From NCBI GenBank assembly GCA_944381455.1, contig CALWLF010000123.1, positions 1 through 53,248 of the forward strand: a stretch of 53,248 bases of DNA, written 5' to 3'. The notes under the pieces were generated by a model. The model was given only the letters and a program-made list of their open reading frames with translations. It had not been told where the DNA came from and did no database searches. The position numbers were made by a program, and so were the translations under genes. This document shows, piece after piece, positions 22,791 through 28,991 of this stretch. The stretch's first letter is position 1. Each line of letters starts with the position of its first letter. The DNA comes from an uncultured Clostridia bacterium (GTDB lineage Bacteria > Bacillota > Clostridia > Lachnospirales > Anaerotignaceae).

Positions 22791-23639
22791 ATGAAAGAAG
22801 TGACTTGGCGTATCACAAAGAGTAAAATTGAAGCCTATTTGCATTATTTATGGGAGATGGAAAAAAGCCCAAAAACAATCGAAAAATACCGGCGGGATTT
22901 ATATGGCTTGTTCCAGATGTTTTCCGGCCGGCCGGTACAAAAAACAGATTTACTGCAATGGAAGGCAGCTTTGGAAACACAATATCAACAGTCCAGCATC
23001 AATGGGAAACTGGTGGCGGTCAACGGTTTTTTGGCCTATTATGGCCTGCATCAATGGCGGATGAAATTGGGCAGGATTCAAAAAAAGATGTTTTGTGCAG
23101 AAGAAAAGGAATTGACCAAAGCCGAATATTTTCGTTTGGTGAAAGCAGCAGAGCAAAAAGGAAACGAACGTCTTTCGCTTGTGCTGCAAACCATTTGTGC
23201 AACAGGCATTCGGGTGTCGGAATTACAGTTTATCACAGGACAGGCGGTGGAAAAAGGCCGGGCTGAGGTGTGCTGCAAGGGAAAAAGGCGGGTGATTTTT
23301 CTGCCGGCAGCCTTACAAAAAAAGTTGAAGCAATATAAAAGAAAACGGCAGCATCAAAATGGGCCGCTGTTTTGCACTCGTTCCGGCTGTCCATTGAACC
23401 GGAGCAATATGTGGTCGGATATGAAAAAACTGTGCCAAAAGGCACAGGTGGCGGCAGAAAAAGTATTTCCTCATAATTTGAGGCATCTCTTTGCAAGAAT
23501 TTTTTATGGAATGGATCGAGATTTGGCCAAATTGGCAGATCTTTTGGGCCATAGCAGCATTGAAACAACGCGGATTTACATTATGGAAAGCGGCGTGGAA
23601 CATAAAAGAAAGCTAGAAAAGATGGGGTTGATTACATAA
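22791..23639 (+). CDS. Tyrosine recombinase next to an invertible segment
   Basis: A 282-residue XerC/D-like tyrosine recombinase. The N-terminal SAM-like core-binding domain (KIEAYLHYLWEMEKSPKTIEKYRRDL) precedes a catalytic domain with the expected residues: Arg in ATGIRVSEL, His-x-x-Arg in HNLRHLFAR, His in LLGHSS and the nucleophile Tyr in TTRIYIMES. I start at the ATG at 22791 because AAAGGGAG lies 9 bases upstream. Its stop overlaps the first of three copies of a 17-20 base repeat, two of which flank a promoter segment in inverted orientation. This placement points to a site-specific DNA invertase that controls the downstream surface protein gene. Confidence 0.92.
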   Translation: MKEVTWRITKSKIEAYLHYLWEMEKSPKTIEKYRRDLYGLFQMFSGRPVQKTDLLQWKAALETQYQQSSINGKLVAVNGFLAYYGLHQWRMKLGRIQKKMFCAEEKELTKAEYFRLVKAAEQKGNERLSLVLQTICATGIRVSELQFITGQAVEKGRAEVCCKGKRRVIFLPAALQKKLKQYKRKRQHQNGPLFCTRSGCPLNRSNMWSDMKKLCQKAQVAAEKVFPHNLRHLFARIFYGMDRDLAKLADLLGHSSIETTRIYIMESGVEHKRKLEKMGLIT

Positions 23640-23654
23640 TTTCAGTTTGGTAGT
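23638..23654 (+). repeat. Recombination-site repeat R1
   Basis: AATTTCAGTTTGGTAGT, identical over 17 bases to R2 and in the same orientation, 75 bases upstream of it. It begins in the last codon of the recombinase. Confidence 0.75.
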
Positions 23655-23711
23655 GATGGGGCAAATAGAAAAAAACGGAATCGGGATTTCTTATTTTGAA
23701 AAACCAGTTCC

Positions 23712-23731
23712 GAATTTCAGTTTGGTAGTAA
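23712..23731 (+). repeat. Inverted repeat R2, left edge of the switch
   Basis: GAATTTCAGTTTGGTAGTAA. The reverse complement of R3 matches it at 18 of 20 positions. Confidence 0.8.
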
Positions 23732-23769
23732 ACCATGCGAAAAAATGCTGATTCACTTTTACATTTTTC

Positions 23770-23798
23770 AATATACCACTATTTCCAATGTTTGGCAA
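23770..23798 (-). promoter_or_regulatory. Promoter inside the invertible segment, pointing left
   Basis: Minus-strand TTGCCA (23798-23793), 17-base spacer, TATATT (23775-23770). The transcript would start near 23763 and run out through R2 toward the recombinase 3' end. Confidence 0.65.
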
Positions 23799-23950
23799 TA
23801 GAATTTCGCGGAAAACGTCATGAAAAGAAAACCGAAAAAAAGGTGAAAAAGTTTTTGCCTTGTTCTCGGTTTATTTTTGTGTCATTTATCCATTTTGAGT
23901 TTCCAAAAACTGGCAATTAAAATTTTTTTCTGCTGGTTTTATTTTTTTTT

Positions 23951-23980
23951 ATGAAAAAAACAAACGTTTCGTTTCCTGGT
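23951..23980 (+). repeat. 30-bp repeat copy 2, inside the invertible segment
   Basis: 25 of 30 matches to 22709-22738, located 11 bases inside R3. One copy is upstream of the recombinase and the other next to a crossover site, which fits a recombinase accessory or autoregulatory site. Confidence 0.5.
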
Positions 23981-23991
23981 CTCTTTTTTCA

Positions 23992-24011
23992 TTACTACAA
24001 AACTGAAAATC
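23992..24011 (-). repeat. Inverted repeat R3, right edge of the switch
   Basis: TTACTACAAAACTGAAAATC; its reverse complement matches R2 at 18 of 20 positions. It lies 237 bases before the surface protein start. Confidence 0.8.
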
Positions 24012-24248
24012 TGTGATTTTCTGTAAGCAAAAGAAAAAAATCTGGCATTCCAGGCTAGTTTGTTTCCGGAAAAATAGCTTGTCTTCCTCTTTTGTTTGCA
24101 GGCTACAGTCAGCTGGTTTGCTGCTTTGTTTCTGGCAGGCAAGGCAAACAGATGCAAAAAATCGATTTTGCTTTTACATCCCTTGGACAGAGTGGACATT
24201 GACAAGGAAGAAAAGGGAAAATTGATTACAAAAGGAGGAAAAGGGAAA

Positions 24249-24653
24249 ATGAAAAGACGTGTTTTTCCAGTGCTGCTGGCAGCTTGCATGGCAGCTTCTG
24301 CAATTCCAGTGCCAGTGATGGCACAAGATGGAACAGCACAGGCTGTAGCACAGGAAAGTAAAGCAGAAGCAGACGGCGAAGGCGATGCAGTTGTAAGCGG
24401 CGAAGGCGAAGCAGGTTCTCTGAAAGTACAGGCTTTGAGCAGTTCTGCTCGCAGCTTAGACATGAGTGAGCTGGAAGTTTTGATCGCATATGCCAAACCA
24501 GGCGATACCATCGAATTAAAGGACAAAACTTATACACTGGACCGTTCTTTGGTGATCGATAAGCCACTGCACATTGTAGGGACCGAAGGCACGGTCATTG
24601 ACGGCAGCAATACCACTTATCCGGTCTATGGGGAGCAAGGAGCATCAGCATGA
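24249..24653 (+). CDS. Surface beta-helix/SLH protein, N-terminal part up to an in-frame TGA
   Basis: A signal peptide (MKRRVFPVLLAACMAASAI to VMA) is followed by an acidic linker and the first beta-helix strands (SELEVLIAYAKPGDTIELK, LHIVGTEGTVIDGSNTT). AAAGGAGG at 24231-24238 marks the start. The frame stops at TGA (24651-24653, codon 135), but the same frame continues at once (CFNYSILVYADDVTIEG) into the next 1.4 kb-residue part without a shift. The stop therefore looks like a single nonsense mutation or read error in one 4.7-kb gene. Alone this product would be a 134-residue secreted fragment with no anchor. Confidence 0.8.
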   Translation: MKRRVFPVLLAACMAASAIPVPVMAQDGTAQAVAQESKAEADGEGDAVVSGEGEAGSLKVQALSSSARSLDMSELEVLIAYAKPGDTIELKDKTYTLDRSLVIDKPLHIVGTEGTVIDGSNTTYPVYGEQGASA

Positions 24654-24671
24654 TGCTTTAATTACTCCATT

Positions 24672-27600
24672 TTGGTCTATGCAGATGATGTGACCATAGA
24701 AGGGGTAAAGATCATCGGGAAAACTTCTGCCATTGGCGTGGGCAATAATGATACCAGCAAAACTCCTTATTTTGCAGAAGACACAGACAAAACACCGTTG
24801 TATGAAAATTATCCAGAGGGCGGTTACAGTGGTTTTACGTTGAGAAATTGTGAAGTGACAACTGCTGCACCTAATGGAGACATTGGCAGCGCTTCTTTGA
24901 TCCAGCTGGATGGGCCGGATGCAACCATCGAAAATAACGTGATTTCCGATGTGGATTGTGATTTTGCAAAAATCAAAGTGGAAAAGACCAATACCACTGT
25001 GACGGGCAACACCTTCCTTAATGTCAGTGGGACAGGCGAATTGGTAGGCACAAACTGGGATTTCGATCCTCCAACCAATGTTATTGAAGACAACGACTCT
25101 TACCGTGCCATTGTATCCAATACAACTCAATTACAGGAGGCTTTGGATGCAGCCCAAGACGGGGATACGATTTTGCTGGAAGAAGGGACTTACTCTGTAG
25201 GTTCTCTGCGTATCAACCATGCCGTCAGCTTCCAAGGGGCCGGCGAAGAAACGGTTTTGGTTGGTTCCATCAACTATTATTGTGGCGGAGAATATGACGG
25301 TGAAATCAAAGTATCCGACCTGACGGTAAAAGCACCGGAAAACAACACCACAGATGAGCAGGCCATTTGGTGGAGTTACAATGCACAAGATCCATTGACG
25401 GGTGCAACTTTGGTGGTTGAAAACTGCAAAGTGGTGGATTATCTGTTTGGGATTGGTGTCAATTCCAGCACAACCGATTGTGATGTGGTGGTAGATAATC
25501 TCATGCTGGAAAACGTATGGTGCGGCGCCAATGTGAGTGAAAAAACCAACACCATCCAAAGCTATGACATTGCAGAAGGCAGCGATGTGGTTTATGAAGT
25601 GCAGGTATTTGGTGGAGGAAGTGCAGTAGAAGCAAACACCTATTACAAAACATGGGAAGACTGCCAGGAAGATACAGGCCGTGCAAATCCTGCTTTAGAC
25701 AGCAATGACAAAAAGCCTCTGATCAAAGAAGGCAACTGGCCAGCCGTGGCAGAGGCCGATGGCTATTACTACGGTTCTGTGCAAAAAGCAGTGGATCAGG
25801 CAGAAGAAGGTGCAACCATCCATCTGAAAGCCGGCACATATGAGATTGGCCGTTTGGATGTGAAAAAACTGGTGAATATGGAAGGTGCTGGGGCCGAGGA
25901 AACGGTGCTGAAAGGATGCTTGGTTTATTCTGTGGATGCAACGGAAGAAGCCATGTCCGTATCCAATTTGACGTTGCAGGCTGATGATAGCAATAATGAA
26001 AAAGCCATCATTTGGAGTATGCGCACCGATTCTCAGCATACGGGCACACTGACCGATTGCGATTTGACAGTAGACCATTGTATCATCAAAGACTTTAAGT
26101 ATGGTGTAGCACTGGATACCAACGCAAGCAGCTGCAATTTGGCAGTGACCAATACGGTCTTTGAAAATACCTGGTGCGGTGTCAGCACCAAAACCGAAAG
26201 CACTGGCGACTTGGTATTGGAGCAAACCACAACCGATGGGGAATACATCATCCAAGCATTTGGTGCGGCCGCTTCTGGGGAAGGAACGGAAAACAAATAT
26301 TATGAAACCGTAGAAGACTACGAAGCAGGCCAAGGCGTAGATGGCAGCGAAACAGGCACTTATGTTTCCAACAGTCAACAGCTGCAAGCTGCTTTGGCTT
26401 TGGCAAACCCTGGCGATACCATCAAGCTGGGCGCAGGTGTTTATGAGCTTGCTGCCAATCAGTGGGGTGGCACACCGGTTAACTTGGTTGGCGCAGGCGC
26501 AGGCAAAACCATCATTGCAGATGCCCTTTGGAGAGGCGGCGTAAATGGCGCTGTGGTAGAAGGTGTGGAAACGCTGTTGGTGGAAGGCATCACCTTCCAA
26601 AATGTGGATGGCATTGACAACTGGAGCAATACAGGTTTTGGCTTTACGCAGATCAACGGCTGCACCATTACGGTGAAAGATTGTGTCTTTGACGGATGGC
26701 AATATGGCGTGCATATGAACGGTGCTAATCCAGGAACTACCATCAATTTGGAAAATGTGGACTTTGTCAATACCTTTATTGGTATGTCCGCACAAATCAG
26801 TGAAGGCACTGGCCTTGGAACCATCACAAACGTAACCACCACCGATGGCGCAATGGCAGTGCAGGTGTTTGGTGAGAATGAAGACTATCATTACTATACC
26901 ATTGACGCCTTTGAAACAGCCAGAGGCGAAGCAGCAGCACCGGCCATCGCTGCCTTGGATCATAGTGCATTGACAGAAGGCGTGGATTTTGAAAACGTCG
27001 ATGGCAATTTGAAAGGTTATGTGGTAACCGAGGGAGAAAGCATTCAAGACGCCATTGACAAACTGGCTGACGCAAATGGCAAAAACATTCTTGTTGTGGC
27101 TCCGGGCACCTATGACGAAGAGATTACCATCAACAAATCCATCACTCTGCGCGGGGCCAACGTTGGCGTAAATCCAAACACCCAAGAGCGTGGAGAAGAA
27201 ACTGTCCTTGGTAAAGTGACAGTACAGGGAGAAAATCTGGATGTTGTGTTGGATGGCCTGAAATTTAGCGGCGACTATACCAAAGCTGCCATCGAATCCA
27301 GCTATAACAACTGTGCTGGTACCAATTTGACGGTACAAAACTGCGTGGCAGAAGATTTGAATGCTCCGTTTGTATTTACCTATTCCGACGATACGAAACG
27401 GTTGGATAAAGTAACGGTAAAAGACAATCAGGTGACAAACATCACGGGAGAAAACACGGCATTCAATTTGTGGGCAGCCAGCGAACATGAAATCACCGGC
27501 AATGTGGTAGAAAACATTGGCCTGGGCGCCTTCAATTTAGATTCCACTGTTGGGGATGTGCTGTTTGAAAACAACACCATCAACAACGTAGGAGGATGCG

Positions 27601-28991
27601 GTTTGCAGATTGCAAATCAAGCCACCGACGGAACCGTTGAAATTTTGGATAACAAAATTGATAAGGCACAAGACGCCGGTATCCGTGTCTATGGCAACCC
27701 CATCAGTTCTGCCTTTGTCATCGAAGATAACGAAATGAATGACTGCGGTCATGCCATTACCTTCTATAATGACGGCGATCCAGAAAACGATACTACCATC
27801 ATTACTGGTGCCATTACATCCAAAAACAATACCCATAATGGGGAAGGCGTTGCAATTGAATATGGTGAAGGCGCCACAACGCCAGAAGGCCAGTATAAAA
27901 TCACCGTGAAAAACGGCGACGAAGTGGTGGCAGAATATCTGGCAAGCGCCGATGCAGAAGGTAAGGCTACGGTGACGCTGCCTGCAGCCTTGACCAGAAG
28001 CGGCTATACCTTCCGCGGCTGGTCGGATGGTGATACGGTTTATAGTGCAGAAGAAGATGTGACGGTGGAAAAAGACACCACCTTCGAAGCCAGCTGGAAG
28101 AAGAAATCAGACAGCGGCAGTGGTTCTCCTGACATCAGCGGCGGCGGCGGAAGCGCTTCCAGCTCCACCAAATACGATGTGATTGTGGAAGACACCGAAA
28201 ACGGCAAAATCACACTGTCCGATGATGAAGCCAAAAAAGGCGACGAAGTGACCATCACCGTAACACCAGATGAAGGCTATGTGCTGGACAAACTGACGGT
28301 ATTGGATGAAGATGGCGACGAAGTGGATGTGGAAGAAAATGCCGATGGTACGTTCACCTTTACCATGCCAAGCGATGATGTGACCATTAGCGCCACCTTC
28401 CAGACCGAAGAAGAAGCCGAAGCAACAGAAGAAACGAAAGCAAGCCAGTTTGTGGACGTGCTTTCCACCGACTGGTTCTACACTGCCGTACAGTATGTGG
28501 CAGAAAACGGTCTGATGAGCGGTGTTGGCGACAATTATTTTGCACCTAACGGCACCACCACCAGAGAAATGCTGGCTATGGTGCTGTATAACCTGGCCGG
28601 TCAGCCGGAAGTGACGGCAGAAAATCCATTCAGCGACGTTGCAGCAGGCCAATGGTACACCGATGCCATTGTGTGGGCAGCAAAAACAGGCGTTGTGGCC
28701 GGTTATGAAGACGGCACCTTTGGCGTTGGCGACAACATCACCAGAGAACAGCTGGCCGCCATGTTGTATCGTTACGCATCCATGAACGGCGCCGACGTTT
28801 CGGTTGGAAGCAGCCTGGTTGGCTTTGCCGATGGCAATACCGTATCGGGCTATGCCGTAGAAGCAGTGCAATGGGCCGTTGGCACAGGCATCCTCAGCGG
28901 AGATGGCACCAATTTGATGCCGCAGTCTGATGCAACGAGAGCGCAGGTGGCTTCCATGTTAATGCGTTACTGCCAAAACGTGCTGAACTAA
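24672..28991 (+). CDS. Surface beta-helix protein with SLH anchor, main part
   Basis: 1439 residues in the same frame as the 24249 ORF. Most of it is right-handed beta-helix in repeated modules of about 200 residues, each opening with a phrase like LQEALDAAQDGDTILLEEGTY and containing a strand such as LVVENCKVVDYLFGIG; the later part (about 27040-27850) is a NosD-like helix. Then come an InlB B-repeat-like segment (YTFRGWSDGD...ASWKKK), a second repeat (EGYVLDKLTVLDEDGDEV) and three SLH domains (about 28440, 28620 and 28810 to the end) that bind secondary cell wall polymer. It is a cell-surface protein, perhaps carbohydrate-binding or adhesive. The TTG start has no clear ribosome site, so it is better read as the rest of the upstream gene. 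Confidence 0.88.
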   Translation: MVYADDVTIEGVKIIGKTSAIGVGNNDTSKTPYFAEDTDKTPLYENYPEGGYSGFTLRNCEVTTAAPNGDIGSASLIQLDGPDATIENNVISDVDCDFAKIKVEKTNTTVTGNTFLNVSGTGELVGTNWDFDPPTNVIEDNDSYRAIVSNTTQLQEALDAAQDGDTILLEEGTYSVGSLRINHAVSFQGAGEETVLVGSINYYCGGEYDGEIKVSDLTVKAPENNTTDEQAIWWSYNAQDPLTGATLVVENCKVVDYLFGIGVNSSTTDCDVVVDNLMLENVWCGANVSEKTNTIQSYDIAEGSDVVYEVQVFGGGSAVEANTYYKTWEDCQEDTGRANPALDSNDKKPLIKEGNWPAVAEADGYYYGSVQKAVDQAEEGATIHLKAGTYEIGRLDVKKLVNMEGAGAEETVLKGCLVYSVDATEEAMSVSNLTLQADDSNNEKAIIWSMRTDSQHTGTLTDCDLTVDHCIIKDFKYGVALDTNASSCNLAVTNTVFENTWCGVSTKTESTGDLVLEQTTTDGEYIIQAFGAAASGEGTENKYYETVEDYEAGQGVDGSETGTYVSNSQQLQAALALANPGDTIKLGAGVYELAANQWGGTPVNLVGAGAGKTIIADALWRGGVNGAVVEGVETLLVEGITFQNVDGIDNWSNTGFGFTQINGCTITVKDCVFDGWQYGVHMNGANPGTTINLENVDFVNTFIGMSAQISEGTGLGTITNVTTTDGAMAVQVFGENEDYHYYTIDAFETARGEAAAPAIAALDHSALTEGVDFENVDGNLKGYVVTEGESIQDAIDKLADANGKNILVVAPGTYDEEITINKSITLRGANVGVNPNTQERGEETVLGKVTVQGENLDVVLDGLKFSGDYTKAAIESSYNNCAGTNLTVQNCVAEDLNAPFVFTYSDDTKRLDKVTVKDNQVTNITGENTAFNLWAASEHEITGNVVENIGLGAFNLDSTVGDVLFENNTINNVGGCGLQIANQATDGTVEILDNKIDKAQDAGIRVYGNPISSAFVIEDNEMNDCGHAITFYNDGDPENDTTIITGAITSKNNTHNGEGVAIEYGEGATTPEGQYKITVKNGDEVVAEYLASADAEGKATVTLPAALTRSGYTFRGWSDGDTVYSAEEDVTVEKDTTFEASWKKKSDSGSGSPDISGGGGSASSSTKYDVIVEDTENGKITLSDDEAKKGDEVTITVTPDEGYVLDKLTVLDEDGDEVDVEENADGTFTFTMPSDDVTISATFQTEEEAEATEETKASQFVDVLSTDWFYTAVQYVAENGLMSGVGDNYFAPNGTTTREMLAMVLYNLAGQPEVTAENPFSDVAAGQWYTDAIVWAAKTGVVAGYEDGTFGVGDNITREQLAAMLYRYASMNGADVSVGSSLVGFADGNTVSGYAVEAVQWAVGTGILSGDGTNLMPQSDATRAQVASMLMRYCQNVLN

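Follow-up and report, generated by a model that had tools for sequence, protein, structure and literature searches.

A Probable Promoter-Inversion Switch in the OFF Orientation Ahead of an SLH Surface-Protein Gene and Its Relatives in Clostridia

Organization of the locus

The region from position 22,791 to position 28,991 of the window (the whole 53,248-nucleotide stretch of DNA from an uncultured member of the Anaerotignaceae that was analyzed here) very probably represents a cis-encoded promoter inverton, i.e., a phase-variation switch, which has been captured in its OFF orientation. It combines a complete tyrosine recombinase gene with an adjacent set of inverted sites that have identical spacers and with a predicted outward promoter inside the segment delimited by these sites. 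Comparison with a large family of homologous loci, in some of which the segment is found in either orientation, provides the main support for this assignment.

The recombinase gene (22791..23639, plus strand; ATG at 22791, stop codon at 23637-23639) codes for a 282-aa protein with an N-terminal SAM-like domain and the Pfam domain Phage_integrase (E value of 4.5e-24). All catalytic residues (R141, K165, H228, R231, H254, and Y263) are kept, and these six positions (R, K, H, R, H, and Y) are conserved across an alignment of 19 recombinase sequences. According to the curated models, the protein is neither a FimB/FimE nor a XerC/XerD. It scores 110 to 113 bits against the XerC/XerD equivalog models, below their cutoffs of 330 to 335, and 24.4 bits against the model of the FimB/FimE-type tyrosine-type DNA invertases (NF007370), where the cutoff is 221.

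Next to this gene are three 18-bp sites that share the identical spacer TTTCAG. R1 (23634..23651, plus strand; arms ACATAA and TTTGGT) runs across the recombinase stop codon, as is also seen in many relatives, and is probably the canonical site for recombination on the left. R2 (23709..23726, plus strand; TCCGAA-TTTCAG-TTTGGT) is a second, tandem copy of it with a weaker left arm, and R3 (23997..24014, minus strand; ACAGAT-TTTCAG-TTTTGT on that strand) is the inverted right site. An earlier sequence-only reading of the window had placed the boundaries of the switch at R2 and R3, described as inverted repeats that flank 260 bp and follow a tyrosine recombinase gene. The recombinase and the repeat were both found again, the latter with 18 of 20 positions of R2 (23712-23731) matching the reverse complement of R3 (23992-24011), 260 bp between them, and an ungapped core of 16 matches in 17. 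Taken alone, this repeat is modestly unlikely, as its score was reached by 5 of 300 dinucleotide shuffles of positions 23600-24249; the comparison with homologous loci is decisive for its being real.

R3 stands as the right boundary, while on the left the earlier reading had missed R1, which fits the family rule (see below) better than R2 does. The site arms in the window are imperfect, with an arm score of 13 of a possible 14 for R1 and of 11 for R2. This family measure favors R1 over R2 as the canonical site. The left site is more likely to be R1, or R1 together with R2, than R2 alone. The 17-bp site pattern is unique to this locus in the 2.05-Mb genome, even with up to 2 mismatches allowed, which favors a recombinase that acts locally. 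The probable invertible segment then extends over positions 23640..24008 (R1 with R3) or, in the version bounded by R2 and R3, over positions 23715-24008, in what we infer to be the OFF orientation.

The segment contains a predicted outward sigma-70 promoter on the minus strand (23770..23798; TTGCCA-17-TATATT with an extended -10 TG) that faces the recombinase gene. Following inversion between R1 and R3, its -10 element would come to lie at positions 23873-23878, and following inversion between R2 and R3, at positions 23948-23953, in both cases facing the surface-protein gene. The same segment includes a long hairpin (23819..23881) with T runs on both strands, which folds on either strand (z scores of -4.8 and -4.2). 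It is a plausible bidirectional terminator, which might shield the target gene from recombinase transcripts in either state. Between R3 and the surface-protein gene there is a 234-bp leader (24015..24248, plus strand) with no strong promoter and no known RNA family; its only promoter-like sequence is a 9/12 match at positions 24193-24222, which is at chance level. A leader riboswitch was considered and rejected, given zero Rfam matches in the window. Both the minus-strand promoter that points away from the surface gene and the absence of a promoter between R3 and this gene had been reported in the sequence-only reading and were upheld here.

These features suggest a simple mechanism. The recombinase would bind the 18-bp sites R1 (perhaps also R2) and R3 and flip the segment of approximately 0.3 kb between them. 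In the OFF state, the promoter would drive leftward transcription, antisense to the last part of the recombinase gene, while read-through into the surface-protein gene would be stopped by the terminator. In the ON state, the promoter would lie beside R3, downstream of the terminator, and its transcript would cross R3 and the leader into the SLH gene.

Distribution of the recombinase

Close relatives of the recombinase are encoded in 18 of the 58 genomes of the same family. The GTDB species genomes contain at least 575 relatives confirmed by tblastn; the names among those listed are mostly from Clostridia, including Anaerotignum, Fournierella, Eisenbergiella, Blautia, and Oscillibacter, along with many MAGs. 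There are 16 recombinase relatives in viral contigs. Searches of phage and plasmid collections returned nothing similar, and in viral contigs there were zero exact matches to 21- and 27-base probes from the window locus. A paralog of the recombinase is encoded on contig 89 of the same genome, where it is part of a second module (L007/L015) that is likewise in the OFF orientation, located beside tRNA genes and ahead of the gene for a secreted protein. Loci from Anaerotignum lactatifermentans and from two genomes of the family have the same segment or junction (L019 is the same as L044, and L022 is the same as L045). This points to a genus other than Anaerotignum, within the same family, as the probable source of the window.

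Recombination sites in homologous loci

Sufficient downstream sequence for testing was available for 108 loci, 96 of which were carried further. An inverted-repeat pair that begins near the recombinase stop codon was found in 97 of the 108. The family site is 18 bp long and consists of two arms of ~6 bp (consensus about ACATAA and TTATGT) on either side of a 6-bp spacer. When the sites were located from the arms alone, with the spacer ignored, the spacer turned out to be identical on both sides and inverted in 90 of 93 loci and in direct orientation in none. In 2,000 trials in which the right-hand sites were dealt among the loci, such identity was seen in a mean of 2.2 loci and a maximum of 8. 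As 90 of 93 loci stand against 2.2 in the dealt sets, the spacer identity, which strand exchange requires, is specific to each locus; 63 different spacers were found among the loci.

Extra tandem copies of the site on the left, on the right, or on both sides are present in about 11 of the 93 loci (weak matches with an arm score of 9 were set aside), which makes the R1/R2 doublet a recurrent feature. The loci with an extra tandem site of the same spacer are the window itself and L005, L025, L051, L054, L055, L057, L060, L083, L128, and L136. In L005, an 86-bp perfect inverted repeat has two nested sites per side, and the stretch between the nested sites duplicates the 3'-terminal part of the recombinase gene and contains a piece resembling a tRNA T arm.

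Promoters, hairpins, and downstream genes

The orientation of the promoters was called by a two-hexamer score evaluated against dinucleotide shuffles, with scores of at least 10 regarded as strong; a -10 element with a TATGTA motif proved too weak on its own for orientation calls in all loci and was dropped in favor of this score. By this measure, strong outward promoters point toward the recombinase (OFF) in 53 loci and toward the downstream gene (ON) in 9, with 2.5 expected per orientation from the shuffles. Promoters in both orientations with scores of at least 9.5 were found in only 2 of the 96 loci. A typical segment has one strong outward promoter, whose -10 element ends at a median distance of 37.5 bp from whichever site is closer. 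A long hairpin separates this promoter from the far site, with a mean best 60-nt minimum free energy (MFE) of -18.8 kcal/mol versus -11.9 kcal/mol in the shuffles. The TATGTA motif is found 3 to 18 nt past the -10 element in 25 of 78 family promoters versus 0.9 expected, and could possibly be an initiation or operator element; the window has AATGTA.

The window target, with its signal peptide, beta-helix, and three SLH domains, belongs to the commonest sort of downstream protein. Frequent products of the downstream genes are SLH or other secreted proteins, chemoreceptors, and cyclic di-GMP enzymes. SLH domains were detected in 6 of the 9 signal-peptide-type downstream proteins that were tested, and the other downstream proteins tested include methyl-accepting chemotaxis proteins, GGDEF or EAL proteins, a hybrid kinase, a sugar transferase, BTAD-type regulators, and an SPFH protein.

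Evidence of segment inversion

Segments in opposite orientations were found at homologous loci in relatives (L125/L137, L117/L092, and L074/L092). In the orthologous loci L125 and L137, which have syntenic downstream genes, the segments are identical in 130 of 182 positions only after one of them is reverse complemented; the alignment score is 90 for the inverted pair and 23 for the direct one, with shuffles reaching at most 22. The segments of L117 and L092 are identical in 153 of 210 positions after inversion (score of 105 versus 39 for direct alignment), and those of L074 and L092, which share a downstream SPFH gene, also align better when inverted (49 versus 29). The promoter calls match these alignments: L117 and L074 are ON, and L092 is OFF.

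Genome assemblies tell a similar story, with contigs ending 0 to 350 bp past the recombinase stop codon in 15 of 95 loci versus 1.36 expected (P value of about 1e-10). Such breaks would be expected wherever both orientations coexist. In L022 and L045 (Anaerotignum lactatifermentans DSM 14214), a scaffold gap (a run of N) begins immediately past the left site, on its inner side, as expected of an assembler that meets both orientations. Orthologous loci of relatives have therefore undergone inversion, and the window copy probably inverts in the same manner. The proposal, made in the sequence-only reading, of an OFF orientation and promoter inversion by the adjacent recombinase has accordingly gained support from the spacers, from the presence of one outward promoter per segment, from the inverted orthologous segments, and from the assembly breaks.

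The surface-protein gene and its in-frame TGA

The surface-protein frame (24249..28991, plus strand; 4.7 kb) encodes a signal peptide, a right-handed beta-helix, repeats that include InlB B-repeat-like and Listeria-Bacteroides ones, and three C-terminal SLH domains. Starting from the ATG at 24249, this frame hits a TGA stop at 24651..24653 (plus strand), after which the same frame resumes and continues to 28991. The TGA falls within the perfect palindrome GCATCAgcaTGATGC, which may be a short in-frame insertion or an assembly error. Homologs of the first 280 residues of the surface protein were sought in the 58 genomes of the family and not found. Selenocysteine decoding was considered and rejected because ARAGORN identified the best match to tRNA-Sec as a tRNA-Ser.

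Because of this TGA, the frame as read yields no full-length exported protein. The data at hand are compatible both with a true nonsense mutation and with an error in assembly or sequencing. The TGA would restrict the output of the switch in this genome, not the switch itself, and the ON state may perhaps produce no full-length protein. The window thus lacks an intact target gene beside the segment, which would be expected of a cis-encoded inverton although it is not strictly part of the definition. The sequence-only reading was right about the domains of this protein and overlooked the interruption of its frame. Its further suggestion, that inversion would start transcription near R3 and into the surface-protein gene, is supported by the family and has to be amended for R1, for the internal hairpin, and for the TGA.

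Alternative interpretations

The locus could have been built as described above and yet be a relic, or idle, in this genome, with a surface-protein gene inactivated by a nonsense mutation and R2 as a sign of decay. We consider this the less likely state of affairs; in its favor are the in-frame TGA at 24651, the imperfect arms with the weaker R2, and the lack of a detectable tRNA-Sec that would decode the TGA. However, the recombinase frame and catalytic residues are intact, the spacers are identical at all three sites, and past the TGA the frame stays open for 4.3 kb with the SLH domains intact; any loss of the surface-protein gene would therefore be recent, or else the TGA would be an assembly or sequencing error.

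Two other readings dispense with the switch. In one, the leftward promoter would exert fixed antisense control over the recombinase, and the repeats would be regulatory elements acting at the RNA or protein level, with no inversion. The promoter does face the recombinase, and the OFF orientation is the commoner one, being found in most loci and in all four of those examined first in the genus. This reading is nevertheless very improbable, as it leaves unexplained the loci in the ON orientation, the inverted orthologous segments, the assemblies that break within the segment, and the locus-specific identity of the spacers; besides, flipping of similar clostridial invertons has been published at the level of sequencing reads (PMC11892184). 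The other reading, in which the sites would serve insertion and excision and the attachment sites would be inverted by happenstance, draws on the similarity of the recombinase to XerC/XerD and integron integrases, the tandem direct copies of the site in some loci, and the tRNA genes that adjoin some of them. It seems the least credible of the three and is already disfavored by the spacers of the outer sites, which are inverted and not direct in 90 of the 93 loci, by the conserved segments that occur in both orientations between fixed flanks, and by the outward promoters that keep a fixed distance from one site. A promoter inverton thus remains the preferred interpretation of the window locus.

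Relation to known systems

The kind of switch proposed here, the fim-type promoter inverton, is already known. As in Escherichia coli fim (FimB/FimE and the 314-bp fimS), a tyrosine recombinase gene is located directly upstream of a promoter segment of ~300 bp, and short inverted repeats flank this segment, which faces the gene for a surface structure. In contrast to fim, the window has a single recombinase instead of two, from another subfamily, an internal bidirectional hairpin, and an SLH protein in place of fimbriae. In gut bacteria, surface components are also phase varied by the inversion of the Mpi capsule promoters of Bacteroides. Unlike the window, with its own recombinase at the locus, that system, from another phylum, relies on an invertase that serves many scattered promoters.

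In Clostridioides difficile, the flagellar, cwpV, and cmrRST switches are, like the window segment, short regulatory segments located before surface or signaling genes and inverted by a tyrosine recombinase (PMC5903667, PMC8844915). However, RecV is one master for several distant switches there, whereas each locus of the window family has a recombinase and a spacer of its own. For Anaerotignum propionicum, an inversion signature close to a chemoreceptor gene has been published (PMC5903667) and was considered as a possible further case; this link was dropped, as the recombinase relatives in six genomes of the family that might include this species are all weak.

A further counterpart comes from a study that used sequencing reads from a defined gut community; it described inverton group 139 and tied it to group 35 of the tyrosine recombinases (PMC11892184). 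According to that report, 32 of the 33 invertons in the group are from Clostridia, and a tyrosine recombinase adjoins nearly every one of them. Flipping was reported for Intestinimonas butyriciproducens (inner length of 227 bp) and for Clostridium sp. D5 (205 bp), and the two published examples have arms of 14 to 26 bp. The window agrees with this group in class, recombinase type, position, and segment length and probably belongs to inverton group 139 and invertase group 35, a likeness of description rather than of sequence. The main text of that report gives no description of the site structure, the terminator, extra sites, or a dead recombinase.

The family is large and little described across Clostridia; what is new here is the clean definition of the module, the extra sites, and the catalytically dead recombinase found in nine relatives (see below). 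Hundreds of tyrosine recombinases adjacent to such segments in gut Clostridia can now be tied to a switch that is readable from assemblies by going from the stop codon of the recombinase gene to the two sites and then to the direction of the promoter, which gives the ON or OFF state. Phase variation thereby becomes predictable for SLH proteins, chemoreceptors, cyclic di-GMP (c-di-GMP) enzymes, and sugar transferases, and the switch would explain assembly breaks at recombinase-adjacent segments.

Catalytically dead recombinase paralogs

In nine relatives of the window locus, the first gene past the right site encodes a recombinase paralog of 268 to 299 aa in which most or all catalytic residues have been replaced. 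These dead recombinases are under strong purifying selection, with dN values of 0.07 to 0.14 versus dS values of 0.46 to 1.7 in close pairs. Since ON would be the only state in which the gene for such a protein is transcribed, the obvious hypothesis, and a testable one, is that the protein holds or biases the switch. We tentatively envision a portable cassette, widespread in Clostridia and consisting of a recombinase, a spacer, a terminator, and a promoter, in which the dead recombinase, made only in the ON state, might bind the sites and lock or bias the switch as a form of memory, with extra tandem sites (such as R1/R2) perhaps tuning the bias. The window copy has the extra site and no dead recombinase. 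The dead recombinases are found in L005, L006, L018, L020, L021, L033, L036, L040, and L134, where they start between -3 and 39 bp after the right site.
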